Shown here: positions 1 to 42,106 of the stretch, piece after piece | Layout: each line of letters begins with the position of its first letter | How positions within the stretch are numbered: position 1 is the stretch's first letter | Translations under genes and position numbers: made by a program | IMG/VR virus record: IMGVR_UViG_3300043119_000974 | Span: 1-42,602 of that record | DNA length: 42,602 nucleotides | Direction: 5' to 3' (one strand) | DNA from: a virus | The notes under the pieces: generated by a model | Told to the model about the DNA's origin: nothing | The model's database searches: none | The model's input: only the letters and a program-made list of their open reading frames with translations

Positions 1-1110
1 TTACCACCGCGCCTCCTTCGACTCTAAAACCGACGCCAAAGACTTCATGTCTTGGGGCGCGAGATGGGCATACCTCATTGTGGTTTGGATGGCTTTGTGT
101 CCCATCCAATCCTTGACGTGTTTGAGAGGTACACCACGCTGTATCAACCGCGAACAGCAAGTGTGTCGCAGTGCATATGGAACGAACTGTTCGTCGTCGT
201 CCAGTTTCATCACGTGCTTCACCTTGTTCCAGACACGTTCAAACCAATAGTTCGTAGCGTTGGGGAAGAGTGTAACCCCGTCCCATACAAGATGGTCTTC
301 GTCGCCAACAATACGCGTAGGGAGTTCATCTAGGCGTGTGCGGATTGTTTCCACCACTCTTTTGGTCATTGCAATAGAGCGCGGATTGTCGGTCTTGTTC
401 TCCCATATTGAGATGAGGCCAGTGTTGAAGTCAATGTCATTGAGTTTCAACCGCCACAGCTCCGAAGGACGCATTCCTGTGTCTATCAGTATCACGAACG
501 CATCAGCATGGTCGTCGAGGCTCCACTGCTTGAGCAGGTTTACGCATACACGCTCTTCGTCCTCGCTCAAGAAGCGGATTCTGCCACCTGTTTCTTTCAA
601 GCGCGGGAACTTGGGTTTCGCCTTGAGCTTTCCGCGTTCGATTGCCATCGTAAACAACTTGGACAACGCCGACATCTTGCGATTGATCGTAGCGTTTGAG
701 TTGTTGTGCTCTTCAATCAACCATTCCTTGTATTCATCCAGTGCAAGGCTGTCGATTTTATCAAGAGGCTTGTCAGGGCCAAAGAAGCGGACCGCATAGT
801 TTGCGTTGATGACAGCTTTTTCTTCTCCACCAGTGCCAGCCCAGTGGTGCCGTATGGTGTACTGAAGGGCTTGGTTGAGCGTCCAGCCGCCAGTTACCGC
901 CTTTTCCTCGTTCTTCCCGTCGAGGCCGCGCTTCAGAGCTTCCTTGAGTTCTGTCCGTCGAGTGATTGCTTCTTCAAGGGTTGCGCAAGTCGCGGTCTTG
1001 CGCTTCCCCTTAACCATTACGTCCACAAAGAACCGACCGTTGCGGAGCCGGATACCTCTCGGTAATGTTTGAGTGTTTTTCGTCGTTGTCGTTGTTGCTT
1101 TTCTCGCCAT
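1..1110 (-). CDS. int: Tyrosine-type phage integrase
   Basis: This 369 aa protein is a tyrosine recombinase that would integrate and excise the phage by strand exchange between attP and the tRNA attB site. It has an N-terminal SAM-like core-binding region (about 75-165) and a C-terminal catalytic domain. The catalytic set is visible: R214 in TGMRPSELWRLK, K239 in ENKTD, R315 in YALRHTCCSRL, H338 in WMGHK and nucleophile Y347 in MRYAHL. The usual first His of the HxxR box is Tyr312, a tolerated change in some members. The ATG has the strong site GGAGG upstream. It lies 40 bases after the MarR-like gene and is probably cotranscribed with it. In the circular phage, attP would follow directly and then the RNA polymerase gene, an arrangement also reported for integrase-carrying podoviruses. 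Confidence 0.95.
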   Translation of the reverse strand: MARKATTTTTKNTQTLPRGIRLRNGRFFVDVMVKGKRKTATCATLEEAITRRTELKEALKRGLDGKNEEKAVTGGWTLNQALQYTIRHHWAGTGGEEKAVINANYAVRFFGPDKPLDKIDSLALDEYKEWLIEEHNNSNATINRKMSALSKLFTMAIERGKLKAKPKFPRLKETGGRIRFLSEDEERVCVNLLKQWSLDDHADAFVILIDTGMRPSELWRLKLNDIDFNTGLISIWENKTDNPRSIAMTKRVVETIRTRLDELPTRIVGDEDHLVWDGVTLFPNATNYWFERVWNKVKHVMKLDDDEQFVPYALRHTCCSRLIQRGVPLKHVKDWMGHKAIQTTMRYAHLAPQDMKSLASVLESKEARW

Positions 1111-1150: not shown

Positions 1151-1522
1151 TTAGAACTTCAGGCCATCTTCGCCGATCATTTCAGCAAGCCGTGCCGCCA
1201 AACGCTTACCTTTTCGCGTCAGCTTTACTATTTTACGCCGTCGTTCTGCCGGATCATCGACCGTCTCGACCAAATCGTAGCCGAGCTTGTCTTGTTTCTG
1301 GTACTTTCCTAATGCTTGGCAATTTCGAGATGCACTGGCCTGTGACAGTCCCAAAACCTCCGCGATTTGTTTCATTGTGCAGCCGTCGTGCATGGCAACG
1401 TAAAGAAAAACAGCAGCCATCTGGATCGGCATTCCGGGGTTTCTGTCGGGGTTTGTGTCTCCCGGCTTTGGAAGGTTGTAGAGTTCCATCAGCAGGTTAA
1501 ACGTGTTTTGCATCTTCTTCAT
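1151..1522 (-). CDS. MarR-like winged-helix transcriptional regulator
   Basis: This 123 aa protein has a winged helix-turn-helix of MarR type. The recognition region CTMKQIAEVLGLSQASASRN lies at about 53-72 and is followed by a wing (DKLGYDLVETVDDPAERRRK) and a C-terminal helix (KGKRLAARLAEMI). MarR proteins bind inverted repeats as dimers and usually repress. It sits directly upstream of the integrase, behind AGGAGG, in the lysogeny module. No CI- or Cro-like repressor was seen elsewhere, so it is the best candidate for regulating lysogeny or integrase. That role is inferred only from position; the domain call is firm. Confidence 0.8.
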   Translation of the reverse strand: MKKMQNTFNLLMELYNLPKPGDTNPDRNPGMPIQMAAVFLYVAMHDGCTMKQIAEVLGLSQASASRNCQALGKYQKQDKLGYDLVETVDDPAERRRKIVKLTRKGKRLAARLAEMIGEDGLKF

Positions 1523-2762: not shown

Positions 2763-2781
2763 GTCGCGAAGGTGGATAGTT
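2763..2781 (-). repeat. Intergenic element copy 1 (AACTATCCACC-TTCGCG)
   Basis: One of five near-identical copies. On the minus strand it reads AACTATCCACCTTCGCGAC, just downstream of the ArdA stop codon. In RNA the copy and its flank can form CAC-cuu-CGC / GCG-guu-GUG, a bipartite hairpin also possible at the 4077 copy. Confidence 0.8.
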
Positions 2782-3868: not shown

Positions 3869-3887
3869 TTCGCGAAGGTGGATAGTT
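3869..3887 (-). repeat. Intergenic element copy 2
   Basis: Minus-strand AACTATCCACCTTCGCGAA, identical to copy 4. It starts a few bases after the U-run of the leader terminator and lies about 60 bases upstream of the first early gene. The RNA can fold UCCAC...GCG-aauaa-CGC...GUGGA. Confidence 0.8.
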
Positions 3888-3892
3888 ATGTT

Positions 3893-3951
3893 CAAAATAA
3901 AATCAACCAAGTGGTACCGTTAGCGTTCCCGCTAGCGGCACCTATGGTTGA
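3893..3951 (-). terminator. Strong leader terminator / attenuator of the early operon
   Basis: The minus strand folds into a three-part stem: TCAACCA with TGGTTGA, then GGTGCCG with CGGTACC, then TAGCG with CGCTA, capped by a GGAA tetraloop. It is followed by TTTTATTTTG. This is a textbook intrinsic terminator, yet it lies between the early TTGACA promoters (about 4025-4367) and the first early gene at 3828. It therefore acts on the leader, not the end, of the operon. Confidence 0.75.
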
Positions 3952-4076: not shown

Positions 4077-4093
4077 TGCGTAGGTGGATAGTT
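4077..4093 (-). repeat. Intergenic element copy 3
   Basis: Minus-strand AACTATCCACCTACGCA, with two changes from copies 2 and 4. The RNA can form CAC-cua-CGC / GCG-gaa-GUG, the same layout as copy 1 with different bases in the internal loop. Confidence 0.7.
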
Positions 4094-4212: not shown

Positions 4213-4241
4213 ATCTTGCCTCACCCTTCTCGCTTTGTCAA
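4213..4241 (-). promoter_or_regulatory. Candidate early host-type promoter
   Basis: Minus-strand TTGACA (4236-4241) is followed after 17 bases by CAAGAT, or after 18 by AAGATA, a weak -10. The -35 lies inside the first copy of the 24-base repeat that also carries TTGTTGCAAA. Confidence 0.4.
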
Positions 4242-4257
4242 GGGATTTTGTTGCAAA
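4234..4257. repeat. 24-base direct repeat, copy 1, with TTGTTGCAAA box
   Basis: A perfect 24-base repeat of 4360-4383. It begins TTTGTCAAGGGA and ends TTTTGTTGCAAA. It combines a -35 box in both directions with a candidate operator; related boxes occur at 4572 and upstream of the RNA polymerase gene at 41844. Confidence 0.9.
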
Positions 4258-4338: not shown

Positions 4339-4367
4339 AATCTATACAGCTTCGCATAGTTTGTCAA
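4339..4367 (-). promoter_or_regulatory. Best early leftward host-type promoter
   Basis: Minus-strand TTGACA (4362-4367), a 17-base spacer and TAGATT (4339-4344). It points to the early operon (small genes, ardA, regulator, integrase) and, in the circular phage, on towards the RNA polymerase gene. The -35 lies inside repeat copy 2. Confidence 0.55.
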
Positions 4368-4561: not shown

Positions 4562-4790
4562 TGCGCGGCTTTTGTTGCAAATCCACGTTGCAAGACGTGC
4601 TTTCATGGACGGCTGGAGCTGGTCAAATTGACTGCCACAGCGACACCACGGAGCCTATGGGGGGAAATCGCTCATTCACATAGCGTGAAAGCGTCTCACA
4701 TTTTTCACCCAAAATAGCCGGGACTTGATCCTCGCCCTCACCCGCAGTAAACATACCGACATCATTATCACAACCACAGGAGGTACCTGC

Positions 4791-5195
4791 ATGACACAGA
4801 AGTCGTCATTCAAGGGTGTAGCTGCCTCTGTTCTGCTAGCTCTCACCCTTGCGTTATCCACTGGAGGCTGTGCCACTTACCAGAAGCTGACACCTCAGCA
4901 AACGAAGGCACACCTCGACACGTGGATAGGCCGTTCCACGGATGATCTCATGTTAACTTGGGGAACGCCTATTCGTTCATCGAAACTAGAAGACGGTCGT
5001 ACTGTCCTCGACTATGAACACACAAACGACTACTCGACGCTTGAAGGAGCGAACTGGACGTGTACGTGTAAGGTGACAGTCATCACTGCCTCTGATTCAA
5101 AGACCATTGAGAAGATCATCCCCAAAGGATCGGAGTGTAATGATCCATATACGATGAGAGAGTTCTTCTCTGCTGCTTCTCCATCTCAGGAATGA
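4791..5195 (+). CDS. Putative lipoprotein, probable lysogenic-conversion gene
   Basis: This 134 aa protein is the only convincing gene on the plus strand. ATG at 4791 follows AGGAGGTACCTGC. The N-terminus is a signal peptide (MTQKSS, hydrophobic AASVLLALTLALS) ending in STGGC with Cys27 as the presumed lipidation site; the box is slightly atypical. The mature part has a WIGRSTDDLMLTWGTP motif (about 45-60) seen, from memory, in small bacterial outer-membrane lipoproteins, and a C-terminal segment with CTC and a further Cys. Its opposite orientation, position between packaging and early genes, and likely export fit a gene expressed from the prophage for the benefit of the lysogen, for example surface change or superinfection exclusion. 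Specific function unknown. Confidence 0.88.
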   Translation: MTQKSSFKGVAASVLLALTLALSTGGCATYQKLTPQQTKAHLDTWIGRSTDDLMLTWGTPIRSSKLEDGRTVLDYEHTNDYSTLEGANWTCTCKVTVITASDSKTIEKIIPKGSECNDPYTMREFFSAASPSQE

Positions 5196-7305: not shown

Positions 7306-7563
7306 CTAATTCAGGTGGCATCCATCAGGACCGCAGGACATACCTGCTCCATCCTCATCGGAGTCGTAGGAAGGCAGGGAGTCAACAAGGTCTTGGATGC
7401 CGTCATTACGTTCACCGTCACACTCGATGCCATTATCACGCAGGAACTGGCGAATGACACTGAGGTCGGCAGAAGTGAAATCGCCGTTCTTCAGTTTCTT
7501 GGCGAGAGCTTCGGTGAACATGCCATGCAGATCAGCAAGATCATTCGTGGTTGCTTTGCTCAT
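7306..7563 (-). CDS. Terminase small subunit (T7 gp18-like)
   Basis: This 85 aa protein matches the DNA-maturase A / small terminase family of T7-like phages (T7 gp18 is 89 aa). It recognises the packaging substrate and regulates the large subunit. The family pattern is visible: an N-terminal helix (LADLHGMFTEALAKKLKN) followed by FTSADLSVIRQFLRDNGIEC, typical of the small DNA-binding domain. The acidic tail ends CGPDGCHLN with two Cys. It begins 3 bases after the preceding stop and lies upstream of the large subunit, as in T7. Confidence 0.8.
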   Translation of the reverse strand: MSKATTNDLADLHGMFTEALAKKLKNGDFTSADLSVIRQFLRDNGIECDGERNDGIQDLVDSLPSYDSDEDGAGMSCGPDGCHLN

Positions 7564-25029: not shown

Positions 25030-26937
25030 TCATACCTCCTTGTAGAACTGACGGTGAGGCCAGTCATGTTTCCTGCGGACGACGTTCCAGTTCTTGGTGT
25101 TCGTGAGGAAGCCGACCACACGGGTGAACTCTTCCTCGACAGGCTGTCCGCAGACCGTGCAGAAGCTGTCACTTCCAACCGTCACATGACCGAGAGAGCA
25201 CCGCTGGATCGTGTAGTTGATCGCCCAATAGACAACGCCTTTGGACGCACAATAGCGAATCAGCTCTTTCACACGCTCCTTGTCGGTGATCCTTTCAGCC
25301 ACATTGACGTGCATGATTGCGCCGCCGCTGAAGTGTTCGTCGAACAGTCCCTGAAGAGCCACGCGATCCAGAAGGTCCGCTTCGGTAATGAGCGGGATGA
25401 ACTGGTTCGAGTAGTACGGATGACCAGTCTCATATCCGAGGAGGTTGTCCTTCTTGGCGATCTTCACTGAGGAGTTCTCAGCCGGAACCTGTTCCACGTT
25501 GTGAGGCGCACCGTAGGCATTCTGCATTGCGTCATTGGTGGCATTCACCATCTTGAGACAACGCAGCACAAACGCCTGCCCGTCCTCGGTCAGGATGTCG
25601 TGGCCCATGAGTTCACACGCTTCGTTCAGGCCAGTGATCCCACAGGTGGAATACTGCCGCTTGAGGTCCATGAGGCCGAGCGAATACAGCGGCAGGGAGC
25701 CACGCTTGATGCGGTCCCGGATGAACTCACGCTTGGCGTTGTTTACGGTAGCTGCCACCCTGACGAGGGTGTTGAGGTTCGCCATGAAGCGATCTTCATC
25801 TCCATCGGAAAGGACAGCGATCCGAGGCAGGTTTAACGTCACGACGCCGAGACTGCCGATCTTGGTCGCTCCTGCACCGAAGGTGTTAGAGTAGCCAAGT
25901 CCTTCCATGTCTGAACGGAGGCGGCAGCACGAGGACAACGTGCTCGACTTCCCGCAATAGATGTTGATGAACCCGTATTCCAGATTCTTCTCTGCGATCA
26001 TGTCGAGGAACTCGTCGTCCCGAAGGTTCTTCTCGTCGTCGATTGCAAAGCAAGCCGTCACCACAGGGAAGGTGATGGGCGTCCTGCGAAGGGTTGCGTT
26101 CATGCAGTCGAGGAAGAGCTTCTGCACATTGACGATAGTCTCGATCTTAGGCGTTTCACCGTCGATCATGTAAGCCGGGGAAAGTTCTTCAAGGAACTTC
26201 CTGTCGTATACGCTGACGTTGGTGAAAGGGGACTGGTTGCCACGGAACTCCCAGTTCAGTGTGTAGATCAGTGAGGTGATCTGTTCTCGGACATAGGTCC
26301 ACGCTGCTTCCTGATTTGCGAACTTGAAGTGGTGGTCCGCAAACGAGCCGTCCTCCTGCGCCATCTTGTCCACGAAGTAGGACGCCACTAACAGGAGGTC
26401 TGCCAATCCTGTTGCTCCGAGCGTTGAGTTCGCCGCATACACCGTGAACTGTTCGACCTGACGGATGAAGGAGTGCAGCGACTTGGGACGGGACACGTCC
26501 AGTCGATTGCTCATCTTCAAGCCCTCAAGGGCAATGTCGTAAGTCGAGTAGTTGAAGCAGTACGGGCGACCGATGTCCCATACGTCGTTGATGTAGATGT
26601 CGCCTTTGATCTGCATCTCGATGATGGTGTTCGCGGTTTCAAGACCGTGCAATTTCTTGATGGTCTTCCACAGGTTGAAGTAGCTGTTCAGCTTCATCTG
26701 CGGCTTGGGAACCTCGAACGTGTAGGTGATGACATCCTTACCGCAGACGTTGGCGTTCGCATCCACGGAGTGGTCGGCAACAGTGGTTTCGGAGTTGAAG
26801 AACTCCTTGCTCATATGGTGGATGTCCAGTTGTTCACCTACGCCGTCGATGTTGAACAACTCCGCAGGGTACCTGGAACGCAAGTAATGCCAGAGATCGC
26901 AGAACTCTTGGTCGTAAGAGGCATGGAGGTACAGCAC
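25030..26937 (-). CDS. nrdD: Class III (anaerobic) ribonucleoside-triphosphate reductase
   Basis: This 635 aa enzyme reduces ribonucleoside triphosphates using a glycyl radical. The radical site is Gly609 in FTRVVGFLT. Active-site cysteines are visible as C127 in DIGRPYCFNY and C337/C338 in STLSSCCRLRSD. The zinc site near the end is C580-SLGH-584 and C593-TV-C596, i.e. Cys, His, Cys, Cys in place of the usual four Cys. The protein begins directly with catalytic-domain sequence and lacks an N-terminal ATP-cone, so overall-activity feedback by dATP should be absent. The start is GTG at 26937, seven bases after GGGAGG, overlapping the upstream stop as TAGTG. Confidence 0.95.
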   Translation of the reverse strand: MLYLHASYDQEFCDLWHYLRSRYPAELFNIDGVGEQLDIHHMSKEFFNSETTVADHSVDANANVCGKDVITYTFEVPKPQMKLNSYFNLWKTIKKLHGLETANTIIEMQIKGDIYINDVWDIGRPYCFNYSTYDIALEGLKMSNRLDVSRPKSLHSFIRQVEQFTVYAANSTLGATGLADLLLVASYFVDKMAQEDGSFADHHFKFANQEAAWTYVREQITSLIYTLNWEFRGNQSPFTNVSVYDRKFLEELSPAYMIDGETPKIETIVNVQKLFLDCMNATLRRTPITFPVVTACFAIDDEKNLRDDEFLDMIAEKNLEYGFINIYCGKSSTLSSCCRLRSDMEGLGYSNTFGAGATKIGSLGVVTLNLPRIAVLSDGDEDRFMANLNTLVRVAATVNNAKREFIRDRIKRGSLPLYSLGLMDLKRQYSTCGITGLNEACELMGHDILTEDGQAFVLRCLKMVNATNDAMQNAYGAPHNVEQVPAENSSVKIAKKDNLLGYETGHPYYSNQFIPLITEADLLDRVALQGLFDEHFSGGAIMHVNVAERITDKERVKELIRYCASKGVVYWAINYTIQRCSLGHVTVGSDSFCTVCGQPVEEEFTRVVGFLTNTKNWNVVRRKHDWPHRQFYKEV

Positions 26938-27113
26938 TAACGCACCTCCCAACTGCCGCAGTACGCACGTACATCTGCCATGTCTCCCTTCAGTCGATTG
27001 GCAGGGATGCAGATGTAGTGGTTGGCGTAGTAAGGATCAGGCCGTCCCTTTGCACAGGTGCGGCAGTCATTTTTGCGGATGAGTTTGTAGAACAGACGCT
27101 TCAGGGTTTTCAT
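26937..27113 (-). CDS. Cys-containing microprotein between ligase and nrdD
   Basis: This 58 aa reading frame starts with ATG at 27113 sharing TAATG with the ligase stop and ends in TAG shared with the nrdD GTG (TAGTG). GGGAGGAC lies upstream. The sequence MKTLKRLFYKLIRKND is basic and amphipathic, and is followed by C17-RT-C20, then C35 and C52. The CxxC plus two single Cys could bind a metal ion. Its double overlap with both neighbours is strong evidence that it is translated; function unknown. Confidence 0.78.
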   Translation of the reverse strand: MKTLKRLFYKLIRKNDCRTCAKGRPDPYYANHYICIPANRLKGDMADVRAYCGSWEVR

Positions 27114-30146: not shown

Positions 30147-30638
30147 TTAATTGAGATTAACCAGTCGCCCTAAGAGCTTTTGGTTGTGCAGGGCTTCTGC
30201 GATTGCCTGAGTGTCTTCTGAAGAATATGAAACGAGGCAGGAAGGAGCGTTGGCTGTCCCGCCTTGCACGCCGTTCACATGATAAAAGCGAAGCCGCCCT
30301 TTAAAGAAAAAGACGGCTTTCGCTTTGTTCCAGATTTCTGAATGGAACCCTTTCGTTTCTGTTCTAGCAAAAATGAGTGCAATGCCTCTTCCGTGCTCTG
30401 CCAACTTATTAAGCCATTTGAATGTCTCCCGTCCGTAAGGGGGATTACACCACACTCGTCCGTACCAAGGCTTGCACAGGCCATCATCCAGCACAGTGTA
30501 ATGGTTCTGTGCTGTTGGCCACGGACGCTTGACTGGCGAACATGGGTCCAAATCAAACTCTCCAAGGGCAGTAATAATTTCAGGCGGTGTCAGCCACTCA
30601 TCTTTGTTCTCAGTGTTTGAGTTGAAGTCACGGGACAT
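30147..30638 (-). CDS. Phage N6-adenine DNA methyltransferase (Dam-like)
   Basis: This 163 aa protein matches the short phage N6-adenine methyltransferase family. The N-terminus DEWLTPPEIITALGEFDLDP is the family signature, and the catalytic motif is CNPPYGRE (N-P-P-Y) near 64-71. GIALIFARTETKGFHSEIW and FFKGRLRFYHVNG are further conserved segments. It would methylate phage DNA to evade restriction or mark it. The ATG forms TAATG with the rha-like stop and follows AAGGGAG. Confidence 0.9.
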   Translation of the reverse strand: MSRDFNSNTENKDEWLTPPEIITALGEFDLDPCSPVKRPWPTAQNHYTVLDDGLCKPWYGRVWCNPPYGRETFKWLNKLAEHGRGIALIFARTETKGFHSEIWNKAKAVFFFKGRLRFYHVNGVQGGTANAPSCLVSYSSEDTQAIAEALHNQKLLGRLVNLN

Positions 30639-31402
30639 TACGCAGCTCCCTTGTAAGCGTTCTCGTAGCCGCGCTTCATGGTCAGCTTGCCAGCACGATA
30701 GAGTTCGACAATCTTCTGCTTGCCCTTATCGAGGACGATGATCTCGACATAGCCGCGCTCTCCGTAGACCTTCTCAGCGAAGAGCTTCTCACGGTACTGG
30801 CTGCGAACCTTGTACGGAGCACCACTGTGACGGCGGTACAGGTAGCCAGCGTTCATGAGGTCTTCCTTCACCTTCATGGAGTTCACGCCACGAAGGGTAC
30901 GGGCGAACCGTGCGATGGTGATGCAGCGGTCAGCGAACGCCTTCTCATAGACTGCGGCCTTGGGAGCAAGAGCTTTGGTCTGTGCTTCAAGAGCCATCTT
31001 CTGTTCAACCTGATCTGCCCATGCACGAGCGGCTTCAACAGGGTTGGTGAAGTCGGGCAGGACATTCGCCTGTCGCTTCATCAGTTCGGCTTCCATGCGG
31101 TTGAAGGCTTCGATGTACTTGAGCTTCCAAGCGAGAGCCTTGTCTCCGTTGAAACCCATCACGAGCAAGGAGAAGCCGTCACGGTCCATGAGGAACATGG
31201 GCTGTTCTTTGTTCTGAGCGTTGATGTAGGAGGACTGTCCAAAATTGGACACTCCTTTTTCGACCAGTTTTCGGATGTCGCGCATGACATGCTGGTGGTT
31301 CTTCCCGAACACCTCAGCCACCTTGAGGCTGGTGGTCATGGCTTTGTTGTTCTCAAGGGTCACGAGTTCAGTAGCTACGGGCATGGGAGTGGTAGTGTTC
31401 AT
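30638..31402 (-). CDS. Rha-type / KilAC antirepressor-like protein
   Basis: This 254 aa protein joins an N-terminal Rha domain (MTTSLKVAEVFGKNHQHVMR, about 23-42, through LLVMGFNGDKALAWKLKYIE) with a C-terminal KilAC-type DNA-binding domain (ITIARFARTLRGVNSMKVKE and GYLYRRHSGAPYKVRSQYRE). Such proteins are phage regulators that often act as antirepressors. The start at 31402 follows AAGGAGAAATATA; longer readings would invade the previous gene. It follows the Bro-type regulator by 22 bases, so the two are probably coexpressed from P4. Confidence 0.88.
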   Translation of the reverse strand: MNTTTPMPVATELVTLENNKAMTTSLKVAEVFGKNHQHVMRDIRKLVEKGVSNFGQSSYINAQNKEQPMFLMDRDGFSLLVMGFNGDKALAWKLKYIEAFNRMEAELMKRQANVLPDFTNPVEAARAWADQVEQKMALEAQTKALAPKAAVYEKAFADRCITIARFARTLRGVNSMKVKEDLMNAGYLYRRHSGAPYKVRSQYREKLFAEKVYGERGYVEIIVLDKGKQKIVELYRAGKLTMKRGYENAYKGAA

Positions 31403-31424
31403 TATATTTCTCCTTCTTCTTTGT

Positions 31425-32165
31425 TTAAGCCGCTGCTGTGTGGTTGTGGTGGTTGCCTTTGATGAGATCACGTGCCAGTTCAAGACCGCCGGGAGTGAAG
31501 CCGTAGTTGCACTCAGGAATGACCTCGAAGTAGCCCTTGTGGATGTAGCCTTCACGAGGCCAGTAACGCTTGCCGCGCTGCTGGAGCACACCGTTGCGGA
31601 GCAGGACGACCTGAAGGTGACTGAGGGTTACACCCAGTTCCTTCGCCGCCATGCTGATAGTCCACAGGGTTTTCTTGTGGGTGCAGCGTTCGTGGAAGGC
31701 GATGGAAGGCCGAACTGCTGCTTCAAAACGAGCGCGCTTCAAACGCTCCTTTTTCAGCTTGTTCGCCATTGCGATAATGGTGTCGGGGTTTTCAACCACT
31801 TCTTCGATGAACTCAGGAGTCATGTAGACGCCGTGCTCACGAACTGCAGGGAGGACTTCGGAAGTCACCCACTTCTTGAACCTCTTGGCTTCCGGCTTGC
31901 GGGAGCGGAGGATCAGGGAGTAGAGGCCGGATTCGTTTATGATGGAAACTGCACGGACCTGATCCGTATACTGTACGGGGCAGGTCGAACGCTCGTCATC
32001 ATCCAACAGTTTCGAGAGGTTGCTGGTGTCAATTGTGAGTGCATCACACACGTCCTTAGCGACGAACCAGACTTCACCACCTTCACCCTTGAGGACGCGA
32101 ACGGTGCCGAACATTTCATGATTGAACTGAGCCGGAGCCATTGCATTGAACTTGTTGTCAGCCAT
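31425..32165 (-). CDS. BRO-N / KilAC-type antirepressor-like protein
   Basis: This 246 aa protein has an N-terminal BRO domain (VRVLKGEGGEVWFVAKDVCD, then SLILRSRKPEAKRFKKWVTS and EVLPAVREHGVY) and a C-terminal KilAC/ANT-like domain (AAKELGVTLSHLQVVLLRNG, HKGYFEVIPECNYGFTPGGL). It ends with a His/Asn-rich tail. Related proteins bind DNA and can lift phage repression. The start at 32165 follows AAAGGAG, which the longer reading ignores. It is the first gene after phage promoter P4. Confidence 0.9.
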   Translation of the reverse strand: MADNKFNAMAPAQFNHEMFGTVRVLKGEGGEVWFVAKDVCDALTIDTSNLSKLLDDDERSTCPVQYTDQVRAVSIINESGLYSLILRSRKPEAKRFKKWVTSEVLPAVREHGVYMTPEFIEEVVENPDTIIAMANKLKKERLKRARFEAAVRPSIAFHERCTHKKTLWTISMAAKELGVTLSHLQVVLLRNGVLQQRGKRYWPREGYIHKGYFEVIPECNYGFTPGGLELARDLIKGNHHNHTAAA

Positions 32166-39130: not shown

Positions 39131-39149
39131 TTCGCGAAGGTGGATAGTT
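39131..39149 (-). repeat. Intergenic element copy 4
   Basis: Minus-strand AACTATCCACCTTCGCGAA overlapping the last base of the RNA polymerase stop codon. The flank adds TGTCGCGA, giving a perfect TCGCGA-atg-TCGCGA hairpin. Confidence 0.8.
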
Positions 39150-41719
39150 TATGCGAAAAAGAAATCCGACTCCAATACCAAGTTGATGTCGAGATCACCA
39201 ACAGGAGGAAGCGGAGGGAGTTTCTTTTGCTTGTCTTCAGATACCAAGTCAGAGATAGCCTGCCGGAACTCTCCAAGCACATCATGATCTCTGAACATCT
39301 CGACGAATACACGACGGAGGCACTTTGCCATTATCGCTGCATCTTGTGCAGGTACTCCATAAGAATCATGGACCATTGCAAACTCGCAGACGCCTTCCTT
39401 CAAGGCTGCGTGAATGCTGAGTTGGAGCGCGGCAGCGTCGAGAGAGTGGACGAAGTTCGGACTGATACCAGACGCCTGACGATGTTTTGCGATTTTGTCT
39501 GAATCTTCGTTCAAAGTGAGGTACATGATGCTGTCACCAAGTTTAGTCTTGATTCGACGTGCGTTTTGATCTGGATACGCTTGCAGAACAGGCATTCCGG
39601 CAGGAGTGCGCCAAGTCACAGGGAGTTCTTCAGACGCGGCTATCCGTGCCAATTTCTGAAGAAACGCCATTGCGTCACGCGCAGCGATCACAGTCTCGCC
39701 GATAGCATCCCAAATCAAGCGGGAAAGGAACACGGAAGGAGTAAACGTGTCCTCACCCCAAGGGTTCTCTGCACCGCCAGCGATGCGGTCCTTGAGGTAT
39801 TCTTCAGTGTATTCACGACACGACTGTTGCGTACCGCCATAAGGAAGAACCATGACCTGTCGTTTGGTAGCCTTGCGATCAAGACCGAGTTCGAGCCATT
39901 TACGTGCCATGTCCTTTTCGTCGTAGTAAGGCACTTCCTTGGTCTGTCCTTTGGTGTCTTTAACCACCCTCGCAACAATTTCACCTGTGCATACCAGTTC
40001 GCGCAACTTTCCTGTCACTTTATCTGCAACCACCTGATAGATGTCTGCTGGTTTACCGTCTGCGGACGGGATCAGGTTGGTAGCAGCTCCTCCGATTTTG
40101 TCTCTGAGCATGAGTGAGAATATCTGGAGGCCGTTGCATGAACCATCCATATGGACAGGCAGCGTGGAAATGAAGCCATAGCCTTCACGCTTGAACGCTT
40201 CCCATTCAAAACAAAACGCAAGGAATTGCCACGGCTTGTCGGCTTCCTTCGCCCACCACAGAAAACCGAGCGGATCATTAGCGACACGAAGGATGTCCTC
40301 TTCATTGTCTTTTACCCATTGAAAGCGATCTTCAAGAGAGCATTTGTCATGTCCGAAGGTATTAGCTCCGTGGATGGCAAGCCATTTTGCTCCTTCTTGA
40401 TTAGTGATTGGCTTGCCCTTTCCGAAGGTCAACAGTCCTTTGGCATAGTCCGGCCCCTGCGGGTTGAGGAACATTGTCATAGCATAGACACGCCCACGGA
40501 AATCCATTTGATACGGGAAATATATTTCCTCTTCATCTTTGAATTTATCCGCAATGGTAAGTGTTTTCACAAGTTGAAGACGCTGAGATGTCATCTTAGC
40601 GTTCTGTTCGTGTACGTTTCTTGCCAGATGCTTCCAGTTATTATGCGTCTCCTTGTCATGCTCGAAACAGATGTGGTTTCTGGCCTCCTCAATAGGAGCA
40701 CCGCACTTAGGACAAGGAGGAAGTGGCAAGTCCTCGCGAACAGGCAGCTTGCCTATTTCCCCTCCATTTTCCCATACTTTGTCCATCACCTCGAACACCT
40801 TTGTGTTGATGCGGAAGGCAGTATTTTGCATCGCGTTTACGGCCTCATAGACAACGCTCATTTCATCGACACGGTTAGTCAGTTCTTCGATGTAAGAGGC
40901 GTGTCGAGTTTTGATAAGCGGTCGTTGCGGGATATGATTGGTGTGGTAGCCTCCGCTCATGGGACCAGTCCAAGGTTTAGGCGGGATGATACAAGGGAGG
41001 CACTCAGGGAAGAGAAGTTCCGACCGTGCGCATTTCTTTTCAATCCAATCAAGAACCTTCTTGGTGGCGGTCAGCTTATAGACGGTCGTCGAGCGGCTGC
41101 CTTTGGCTGTCTTGATGCGCTTTCCCACATTCAGGGAGACAACCTCGAAGTAACCAGTGGTCGCGATAATGATGTCGATGCACTTCTGCCCGACGTGAAG
41201 GCGGTCTGTGTTTGTCCATCCGTCAGTTTTGATTGCATATTTATTCATGGCGTATGTCATAACGCGATGCTTGTAGCTATCATGGTTCGATTTGTTCACA
41301 TGCTTCTGCATCTTTTTGAACAGTGCAGCGTTTTCTTCCTCGAACTTTGTGTAATTGATCTCGTCTTCGATCTTCGCGCCGATGGCGACGGCCACGAACT
41401 GGAGCATTGCCTCCCTTGAGATATATCGAAGAGCACACTTCAGGCTCAGGAAAGCCGTGATCCGTGGGTCAAGCTGGCGAAGATATTTCACAGCGGCATG
41501 TTTTTTCCCCGGCTTGCCGTTGTTTGCCTCTTCGAGGAAGGCTGCAATGCCTTTCGCTACAGGCTCAATAGCATGGGCGATCAACTGGTTCCCGTAGCTA
41601 GTGGAATCTTCTCTTCCACTTTCCTTGGCTTTGAGAACAGCCCTACGAAAAGAATCTTTACCTCTTCCCTGCATTTCAGCTTCAAGTTCAATCTGACGTT
41701 CCAACTTAGGATCAAACAT
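39149..41719 (-). CDS. Phage DNA-directed RNA polymerase (T7/SP6 single-subunit type)
   Basis: This 856 aa polymerase (T7 gp1 is 883) transcribes phage genes from its own promoters. Motif A is HMDGSCNGLQIFS with D525; motif B RKATKRQVMVLPYGG with R615, K619 and Y627; motif C VHDSYG with D785. The terminal LVLESDFFFA matches the T7 foot that closes the active site. YFPYQMDFRGRVYAM is also typical. Residues 336-359 hold CPKCG followed by H349, C351, H354 and H359, a possible zinc-binding insert not seen in T7. The gene lies alone between two terminators, with phage promoter P1 and candidate operators upstream. Confidence 0.97.
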   Translation of the reverse strand: MFDPKLERQIELEAEMQGRGKDSFRRAVLKAKESGREDSTSYGNQLIAHAIEPVAKGIAAFLEEANNGKPGKKHAAVKYLRQLDPRITAFLSLKCALRYISREAMLQFVAVAIGAKIEDEINYTKFEEENAALFKKMQKHVNKSNHDSYKHRVMTYAMNKYAIKTDGWTNTDRLHVGQKCIDIIIATTGYFEVVSLNVGKRIKTAKGSRSTTVYKLTATKKVLDWIEKKCARSELLFPECLPCIIPPKPWTGPMSGGYHTNHIPQRPLIKTRHASYIEELTNRVDEMSVVYEAVNAMQNTAFRINTKVFEVMDKVWENGGEIGKLPVREDLPLPPCPKCGAPIEEARNHICFEHDKETHNNWKHLARNVHEQNAKMTSQRLQLVKTLTIADKFKDEEEIYFPYQMDFRGRVYAMTMFLNPQGPDYAKGLLTFGKGKPITNQEGAKWLAIHGANTFGHDKCSLEDRFQWVKDNEEDILRVANDPLGFLWWAKEADKPWQFLAFCFEWEAFKREGYGFISTLPVHMDGSCNGLQIFSLMLRDKIGGAATNLIPSADGKPADIYQVVADKVTGKLRELVCTGEIVARVVKDTKGQTKEVPYYDEKDMARKWLELGLDRKATKRQVMVLPYGGTQQSCREYTEEYLKDRIAGGAENPWGEDTFTPSVFLSRLIWDAIGETVIAARDAMAFLQKLARIAASEELPVTWRTPAGMPVLQAYPDQNARRIKTKLGDSIMYLTLNEDSDKIAKHRQASGISPNFVHSLDAAALQLSIHAALKEGVCEFAMVHDSYGVPAQDAAIMAKCLRRVFVEMFRDHDVLGEFRQAISDLVSEDKQKKLPPLPPVGDLDINLVLESDFFFA

Positions 41720-41744
41720 TGTTTCCTCCGTTTGCGTTTGGTTA

Positions 41745-41767
41745 GGTTCACTAGTGCAACCTAATTA
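41745..41767 (-). promoter_or_regulatory. Phage RNA polymerase promoter P1, upstream of its own gene
   Basis: Minus-strand TAATTAGGTTGCACTAGTGA, then ACC. It sits 26 bases before the RNA polymerase ATG and would allow positive self-amplification once some polymerase exists. Confidence 0.9.
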
Positions 41768-41843
41768 CAAGCCAATGAAATTATTGACTTATTCAAACGA
41801 AGGGGGCGGGTAACGGGATTTGCGAAAAAGGTAGGGAGGGGAT

Positions 41844-41893
41844 TTGTTGCAAGAGGTTCAAAATGCGATTTGCAACAATGTTGCGTGCAACAT
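41844..41893. promoter_or_regulatory. Cluster of TTGCAA-type boxes upstream of the RNA polymerase gene
   Basis: TTGTTGCAAG (41844-41853) repeats the box found in the early promoter region, including the GGGATTT before it. Next come overlapping inverted repeats: GCAAC-aat-GTTGC (41872-41884) and ATGTTGC-gt-GCAACAT (41878-41893). The spacing and symmetry suggest dimer binding sites for a repressor that controls polymerase expression. Confidence 0.55.
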
Positions 41894-41912
41894 CGTTACA
41901 GCATCGAACCCC

Positions 41913-41930
41913 TTGCGCAGGTGGATAGTT
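41913..41930 (-). repeat. Intergenic element copy 5
   Basis: Minus-strand AACTATCCACCTGCGCAA. It starts a few bases after the U-run of the terminator at 41942-41971, the same relation that copy 2 has to its terminator. Confidence 0.75.
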
Positions 41931-41941
41931 GCTTAGAAAAA

Positions 41942-41971
41942 GAAAACGCCCAGCGGGAACTGAGCGTTTTC
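41942..41971 (-). terminator. Strong terminator between attR and the RNA polymerase gene
   Basis: GAAAACGCTCAG pairs with CTGGGCGTTTTC over 12 positions (one wobble) around TTCCCG and is followed by TTTTTC. In the prophage it should stop transcription entering from the host tRNA promoter; in the circular phage it would end the integrase transcript. Confidence 0.9.
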
Positions 41972-42025
41972 GGGGGTTCGTGCGTTAGTTGCGATGGTGG
42001 AAAACAAAGTTCGTGGATTTTAAGT

Positions 42026-42066
42026 GATTTTAAATCCCTTGTGTCTACCACTTCCACCACTCGGGC
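42026..42066 (-). pseudogene. 5' half of tRNA-Leu(UAA), split at the anticodon loop; right attachment site
   Basis: The minus strand reads GCCCGAGTGGTGGAAGTGGT, then AGACACAAGGGATTTAAAATC, almost identical to the first half of bacterial tRNA-Leu(UAA) such as E. coli leuZ. After 42026 the match ends: ACTTAAAATCC does not complete the anticodon stem, and no variable arm, T-loop or CCA end follows. The anticodon loop TTTAAAA is the usual crossover region of tyrosine integrases. The 3' half, or a restored gene, should be at the other junction, left of position 1. Confidence 0.85.
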
Positions 42067-42077
42067 ATGTGGCGGTT

Positions 42078-42106
42078 TCTCTAGTATGACATACGCTTTC
42101 CGTCAA
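42078..42106 (-). promoter_or_regulatory. Candidate promoter of the host tRNA-Leu gene
   Basis: Minus-strand TTGACG (42101-42106), a 17-base spacer and TAGAGA (42078-42083), about 12 bases before the tRNA 5' end. It would now read into the prophage towards the RNA polymerase gene. Confidence 0.45.

Follow-up and report, generated by a model that had tools for sequence, protein, structure and literature searches.

Attachment site, terminator and operator-like array around the RNA polymerase gene of a temperate T7-like prophage

How a phage carrying a self-amplifying RNA polymerase (RNAP) of the T7 type remains dormant is a question raised in the work on LUZ100 (OP329100; PMC10134795). In LUZ100 the early host promoters, the MarR gene, the integrase gene (int), the terminator T4, a phage promoter and the RNAP gene follow one another on the same strand, MarR and int are co-transcribed, and RNAP is under the control of the phage promoter phi1. 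During infection T4 stops most transcripts of the MarR-int operon, which start at P3, and some read through. In the TRX32-1 group (Rhizobium, Paadamvirus; PMC8631192), also T7-like, lysogeny and induction have been proven, and the phage attachment site (attP) lies between int and RNAP; a terminator and operator-like palindromes are present too. The stretch of 42,602 nucleotides analyzed here (IMG/VR record IMGVR_UViG_3300043119_000974, hereafter the window) is a temperate T7-like prophage of the LUZ100-like kind residing inside a tRNA-Leu(UAA) gene. According to the original prediction made on this DNA, integration may silence the phage by separating RNAP from its early promoters. The module around RNAP is of a known kind, with a testable topological twist: the attachment site, a phage-borne terminator and an array of operator-like elements are considered below as parts of the dormancy mechanism.

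Crossover site and replacement tRNA

The window is a trimmed provirus record, with gene boundaries at both ends and the left attachment site (attL) located beyond it. Read on the minus strand from right to left, it displays the 5' half of a host tRNA-Leu, the right attachment site (attR), RNAP, and T7-type replication and structural genes. The early promoter, the early genes, a MarR-like regulator, int and RNAP all point in the same direction, int and RNAP being placed at the opposite ends of the prophage. Profile matches define a T7-type gene set (single-subunit RNAP, primase-helicase, DNA polymerase A, portal and TerL). The host is probably a Desulfovibrionaceae bacterium, and was assigned from tRNA similarity because the search of genome contigs yielded T7-like prophages related to the window phage, none of them a copy of it in a named host. 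An anaerobic ribonucleotide reductase gene (NrdD; 25030-26952, minus strand) is consistent with an anaerobic host; nrdD and nrdG are also found in ProddE.

The claim that integration cuts between int and RNAP was borne out by the comparison of the window with two sequences, L002 and L015, all three being integrated copies showing either attL or attR. L015 carries a 99% identical integrase, followed downstream by a complete phage-borne tRNA-Leu(UAA), by TGGAATTTAAAATCACTTAAAATC, and by the 3' half of the host tRNA-Leu (attL at about 7321-7344). On the attR side the window reads GGGATTTAAAATCACTTAAAATCCACGAAC, L002, which has the same RNAP, reads GGGATTTAAAATCCACGAAC, and ACTTAAAATC is absent from the L002 junction. 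The simplest reading is that attP, as reconstructed by joining the window, L002 and L015 junctions, carries two copies of TTAAAATC spaced 10 bp apart, either of which may recombine with the host anticodon loop, the first copy having been used in the window, the second in L002 and L015. The attL of the window is accordingly predicted to read ...GGAATTTAAAATC, followed without a gap by the 3' half of the host gene. The duplicated TTAAAATC core provides two crossover registers 10 bp, or one helical turn, apart. An exact-pattern search of IMG/VR for a free attP or further junctions returned just the two contigs already found. A phage- or plasmid-like primase sequence resides directly past the L015 attL (L015:7389-13101), and another element may share the tRNA site.

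Whichever TTAAAATC copy is used, the crossover falls between int and RNAP, and in the prophage read-through from the early/int operon therefore cannot reach RNAP. Integration severs the early operon from RNAP, and leaves RNAP behind the host tRNA promoter. In the unintegrated order, as deduced through the att junctions, the MarR-like gene and the tyrosine integrase gene are directly upstream of RNAP on the same strand. Among related T7-like phages and prophages in which the site could be placed, the co-directional order int, attP, RNAP was also found in the L008/L021 Rhizobiales prophage, L012/L022, L005, L007, Pasto, LUZ100 (predicted core) and TRX32-1.

The host gene is broken in the anticodon loop; that phages of this group disrupt a host tRNA-Leu while bringing their own substitute is a feature new here. 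At attR (window and L002) the 5' half is present without the 3' half, at the L015 attL the 3' half only, and the short core does not rebuild the tRNA. A tRNA-Leu rebuilt at attR is ruled out by the absence of the 3' half, ARAGORN detecting no tRNA in the window. The spare gene, of the same isotype as the broken one, is seen outside the window, next to int at L015:7215-7303, so that a complete tRNA-Leu(UAA) lies between int and attP in the free-phage order. Single 5'-half matches in most of the matching Desulfovibrionaceae genomes suggest that the target is a single-copy gene. The same arrangement, a break in the anticodon loop and a spare of the same isotype next to int, was read at both junctions of the L008/L021 prophage; L005, Pasto, YIMV22061 and LUZ100 each have a tRNA-Leu(UAA) plus a separate core resembling an anticodon loop. 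A tRNA-Leu break with a spare has been reported for relatives of TRX32-1 (PMC8631192, legend to Supplementary Figure 2). The tRNA-Leu of LUZ100 has been regarded by its authors as a remnant of imprecise excision (PMC10134795); given the core-like GACTTAAAA at 3918, a replacement for a broken gene may explain it better.

Table 1. Features of the window around the attachment site and in the early region.
Feature	Position	Strand	Basis
Tyrosine integrase, last gene of the early operon; stop codon forms the left edge of the window	1..1110	-	phrog_1 E 6e-53; PF00589 E 1e-27
MarR-like winged-helix regulator just upstream of integrase, candidate repressor	1151..1522	-	phrog_9665 E 7e-30; PF12802
Operator-like element AACTATCCACCTTCGC	2766..2781	-	one of 5 exact copies
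Operator-like element	3872..3887	-	exact copy
Operator-like element	4078..4093	-	exact copy
Second TTGACA (4241-4236), same upstream repeat TTTGCAACAAAATCCCTTGACAAA, weak -10	4224..4241	-	sequence; repeat family D17
Main early sigma70-type promoter TTGACA-17-TAGATT	4339..4367	-	10/12 matches; reads through early genes to integrase
Operator-like element overlapping RNAP stop codon	39134..39149	-	exact copy
Single-subunit T7-type RNAP	39149..41719	-	phrog_414 E 1e-274; PF00940 E 3e-101
Very probable phage-RNAP promoter TAATTAGGTTGCACTAGTGA directly upstream of RNAP, autogenous loop	41748..41767	-	de novo repeat count
Palindrome ATGTTGCACGCAACAT in TTGCAA-rich stretch 41844-41893	41878..41893		possible regulator or integrase arm sites
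Operator-like element AACTATCCACCTGCGCAA directly after terminator, before RNAP (array site 41915-41930)	41913..41930	-	exact copy
Intrinsic terminator, phage side of attR, equivalent of LUZ100 T4	41942..41971	-	13-bp stem, dG -17.9, T-tract, 0/60 shuffles equal
attR crossover region, two 10-bp-phased TTAAAATC copies	42015..42034	-	window vs L002 vs L015 attL
Host tRNA-Leu(UAA) 5' half, broken in anticodon loop	42026..42066	-	matches intact Desulfovibrionaceae tRNA-Leu(UAA) genes
Putative host tRNA-Leu promoter TTGACG-17-TAGAGA	42078..42106	-	sequence; inference

Terminator, promoters and operator-like array

The terminator preceding RNAP, which the original prediction took as the block to the host tRNA promoter in the prophage, is real and correctly oriented. 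It is, however, phage DNA downstream of the crossover core (42034-42015), not host flank, a position which rules out a host or prophage-specific barrier. Being phage-borne and placed between the core and RNAP, the terminator separates int from RNAP before integration too; present in both states, it does not distinguish prophage from free phage. A terminator was detected by scanning in the interval from core or int to RNAP in 12 of 20 independent T7-like loci of the int/att type, the number rising to 13 with the LUZ100 T4, which was mapped by experiment (the scan preferred another hairpin there). In T7-like phages lacking int the scan found no strong terminator before RNAP (0/6). The tRNA points away from RNAP in L039, ProddE and L011, the att side of L039 and L011, both presumed to carry int, being read from a partial tRNA; a strong terminator is kept in L039 and ProddE, while that of L011 is within chance (10/60). 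Since relatives with an inverted tRNA keep it, the terminator is not there solely to block a tRNA promoter. A brake acting at all times on the self-amplifying polymerase describes it better than a block confined to the prophage. At L039:1-1560 and L011:9560-9970 the broken host tRNA and RNAP face opposite ways, the orientation of the junction tRNA thus not being conserved.

RNAP is preceded by a motif of its own. The strongest repeated word in the window, AATTAGGTTGCACTA, is present in six copies on the coding strand only; six copies of the promoter were also counted when up to 3 mismatches were allowed, all on the coding strand, against 0 expected, and the exact TAATTAGGTTGCACTAGTGA 20-mer recurs at 39071-39052. 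The same unsupervised count, applied to LUZ100, recovered the mapped phage promoters, including phi1 upstream of RNAP, and the window motif is therefore very probably the phage-RNAP promoter. RNAP would thus be autocatalytic, any polymerase made being able to direct the synthesis of more. No host sigma70 promoter above chance was found by scanning the coding strand between terminator and RNAP. The host tRNA promoter, plausible in sequence, is not the sole promoter upstream of RNAP, as had been proposed, the phage-RNAP promoter being closer.

The leftward early promoters of the original prediction were retained in part: the distal one is a good match to the consensus, the second TTGACA has a weak -10, and no convincing leftward terminator was found by scanning between the early promoter and the int stop codon. 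The product of the MarR-like gene is 52% identical to LUZ100 MarR over 86 aa. Repeats of the TTGTTGCAA type are found at 4248, 4374, 4572 (plus strand), 41844 (plus) and 41870 (minus), and at L015:7193 and 7203. They adjoin the early promoters, the region upstream of RNAP and the phage tRNA (5 in the window vs. 0.5 expected), and may serve a further regulator or be arm sites of the integrase. A small lipoprotein-like gene (4725-5195), the sole clear gene on the plus strand and a candidate for expression from the prophage, separates TerL from the early region. A Rha-type regulatory or antirepressor-like gene in the middle region (30638-31591, minus strand) is a possible repressor antagonist. 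No Rfam elements were detected in the window.

The element AACTATCCACC-NN-CGCA occurs in five exact copies in the window, where chance predicts 0.06-0.16; each is intergenic and lies on the coding strand. Copies in LUZ100 share this orientation with the genes. The copy between terminator and RNAP has the same position in LUZ100 (3996), RHEph21 (2817) and L008 (9684); that at the RNAP stop codon has an identically placed counterpart in LUZ100 (6690), and others close to the end of RNAP in L008 (12517) and TRX32-1 (2898). At the main early promoter of the window only a weak operator-like site, in the opposite orientation, overlaps the spacer and -10 (position weight matrix score 12.4). In LUZ100 the element lies in the -35/-10 spacers of the host promoters P1 and P2, is weakly present at P3, flanks the T4 hairpin on both sides, and is found right after the stop codons of the RNAP, primase and capsid genes. 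RHEph21 and TRX32-1 have a dyad form, ATCCAC-NN-GTGGAT, after stop codons. Sites of the ACTATCCACC-NN-CGCA or ATCCAC-NN-GTGGAT type are common to the window and to Pseudomonas and Rhizobium temperate T7-like phages (L004, L063, L068).

With a loosened consensus, coding-strand sites were intergenic in 8/13 cases in LUZ100 (P 3e-7), 8/10 in RHEph21 (P 1e-7) and 8/10 in TRX32-1 (P 3e-7), genomes in which intergenic DNA makes up 6-10%; as the consensus was loosened after viewing LUZ100 and RHEph21, the P values are indicative, TRX32-1 being the least affected. The loosened consensus has two matches only in the window, where the case is made by the five exact copies. Enrichment is absent in ProddE, which has cI rather than MarR, and in the relatives lacking int (6-7 kb examined). 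Folding of the element as an RNA hairpin was rejected for most copies, no fold being predicted for 16 of 18. Altogether the repeated element looks like a MarR operator or stoperator array, and as such would be a stronger candidate silencer than integration; the obvious candidate to bind it is a MarR dimer. No earlier description of the array was found in the literature examined, a scope which leaves out the Pasto paper, reportedly the first to propose MarR sites beside the RNAP promoter, which may in part anticipate it.

Possible routes to silencing of the prophage

The reading which we favour, with moderate confidence, is that repressor and terminator are the main silencers, and that loss of linkage adds a layer making the lytic burst of RNAP dependent on excision. 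While the genome is free, a small amount of early transcription would leak past the terminator and make the first RNAP, which would then amplify itself from its own phage promoter. In the prophage the leak from the early operon would be physically gone, and the MarR-like repressor, bound to operator-like sites at the early promoter, in the gap between terminator and RNAP and in other intergenic gaps, would hold the rest off; repressor and terminator would also hold down the input from the host tRNA promoter. Upon induction, the early operon, still linked to int, would be derepressed, and integrase made, leading to excision, restoration of the leak and firing of RNAP. Of the original prediction, the physical cut between early operon and RNAP is retained, and separation by integration is plausible as an extra layer of silencing, while repressor and operators are the better supported explanation. 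Excision would restore linkage, but read-through across the joined att site is obstructed by the strong phage-borne terminator, and can only be leaky. The behavior of LUZ100, in which most int transcripts end at T4 and RNAP has a promoter of its own, comes close to contradicting the original prediction, though leaky read-through was seen.

Several points weigh against the combination of repressor, terminator and lost linkage. Promoters of tRNA genes can be strong, so that RNAP might receive as much input after integration as before, or even more. The element is not a clean palindrome in the form found in the window, no clear element was found in CRP-361, Pasto and YIMV22061, all carrying MarR, and co-occurrence and dyad symmetry are the sole grounds for binding by MarR. 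Six relatives with int have no detectable terminator. Silencing in the window phage was read from sequence alone, and stable lysogens of LUZ100 were not obtained (PMC10134795).

Lysogeny may alternatively be controlled purely by the repressor, MarR shutting the early and RNAP promoters and the position of attP being a by-product devoid of regulatory role. This has been published as a model for LUZ100 and others (PMC10134795), agrees with the placement of operator-like sites at P1, P2 and, weakly, P3, and beside T4, and is in line with ProddE, which uses cI with the same att position. Yet in the published model itself RNAP is started by read-through from P3 (PMC10134795), and the predicted LUZ100 core at 3918 is upstream of T4, so that integration would remove the P3 route, whether this was selected or not. 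We regard a purely repressor-based control as the less probable account, though one to be reckoned with.

That integration alone silences the phage, by removing the early promoters and leaving RNAP behind a terminator-blocked tRNA promoter until excision reconnects them, fits the separation of int from RNAP by the att site, the tRNA promoter facing RNAP in the window, L008, L009 and L012, and the precedent of Tn916, in which joining of the att sites completes the circuit (PMC6540685). It is nonetheless improbable: the terminator is equally present in the free phage, RNAP has its own promoter, the early promoters would, if not repressed, stay active in the prophage, and the MarR-like gene and operator-like array provide a route to silencing independent of integration. 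Moreover, RNAP faces no tRNA promoter in L039, L011 and ProddE, yet L039 and ProddE keep the strong terminator, and ProddE carries cI. TATCCAC is similar to a DnaA box, and copies of the element are often found directly behind stop codons, where T7-like phages also have RNA-processing sites; but that the element is one or the other, with the RNAP region controlled only by terminator and phage promoter, is the most doubtful of the alternatives, given that the extension to CGCA is conserved, that Rhizobium phages have a dyad form, that copies lie inside the LUZ100 P1 and P2 spacers, and that most copies lack a predicted hairpin.

A broader scheme, offered tentatively, extends the combined action of repressor, terminator and lost linkage to temperate T7-like phages at large: a self-amplifying RNAP would be gated by excision, the sole host-driven route to the first RNAP crossing attP, and a MarR-type repressor on a genome-wide stoperator-like array would protect against leaks, integration and repression being two locks on a single switch. 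If so, a prophage must excise before starting its lytic program.

Comparison with known systems

The position of the att site, the phage-borne terminator and the operator-like array are concrete, testable parts of an answer to how such phages stay dormant. Read-through as the published start of RNAP synthesis would be confined to unintegrated DNA, and the tRNA-Leu of LUZ100-type phages can alternatively be read as a substitute for the gene broken on integration. In the choice of phages for therapy, T7-like ones are often taken to be strictly lytic, and knowledge of the dormancy machinery helps to recognize temperate ones.

The window and LUZ100 share, besides gene order and strand, a closely related MarR, the ACTATCCACC element and a tRNA-Leu(UAA) near int, but in LUZ100 the tRNA-Leu is upstream of int and on the other strand; in the passages of the LUZ100 report examined (PMC10134795) no discussion was found that the position of attP severs P3 from RNAP. 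The TRX32-1 group differs in the tRNA-Leu core, CAGATTTAGGTT (anticodon of the UAG type), and in operators which are palindromic, not asymmetric. In Tn916, the transcripts for transfer depend on the joining of the att sites (Celli and Trieu-Cuot 1998, cited in PMC6540685). The topology of the window fits a transcript reaching its target genes only in this way, here as judged from sequence; Tn916, however, is a conjugative element, whereas here the element is a phage, a terminator lies inside the joined junction, and the target is self-amplifying.

The broken tRNA-Leu and the phage spare would fit tRNA-dependent lysogeny, defined in actinobacteriophages by authors who ask how common it is elsewhere (PMC10865867), and would place it outside that group: the core is here in the anticodon loop, and the phage is T7-like, with a host of the Desulfovibrionaceae type. 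The distribution and orientation of the elements recall the stoperators of cluster A mycobacteriophages (PMC9283540), asymmetric sites found in promoters and short intergenic gaps and oriented with transcription, a block to elongation being putative here. The repressor of the mycobacteriophages belongs to another family; in the window the candidate is MarR-like, the sites are partly palindromic, and there is a phage RNAP to silence.

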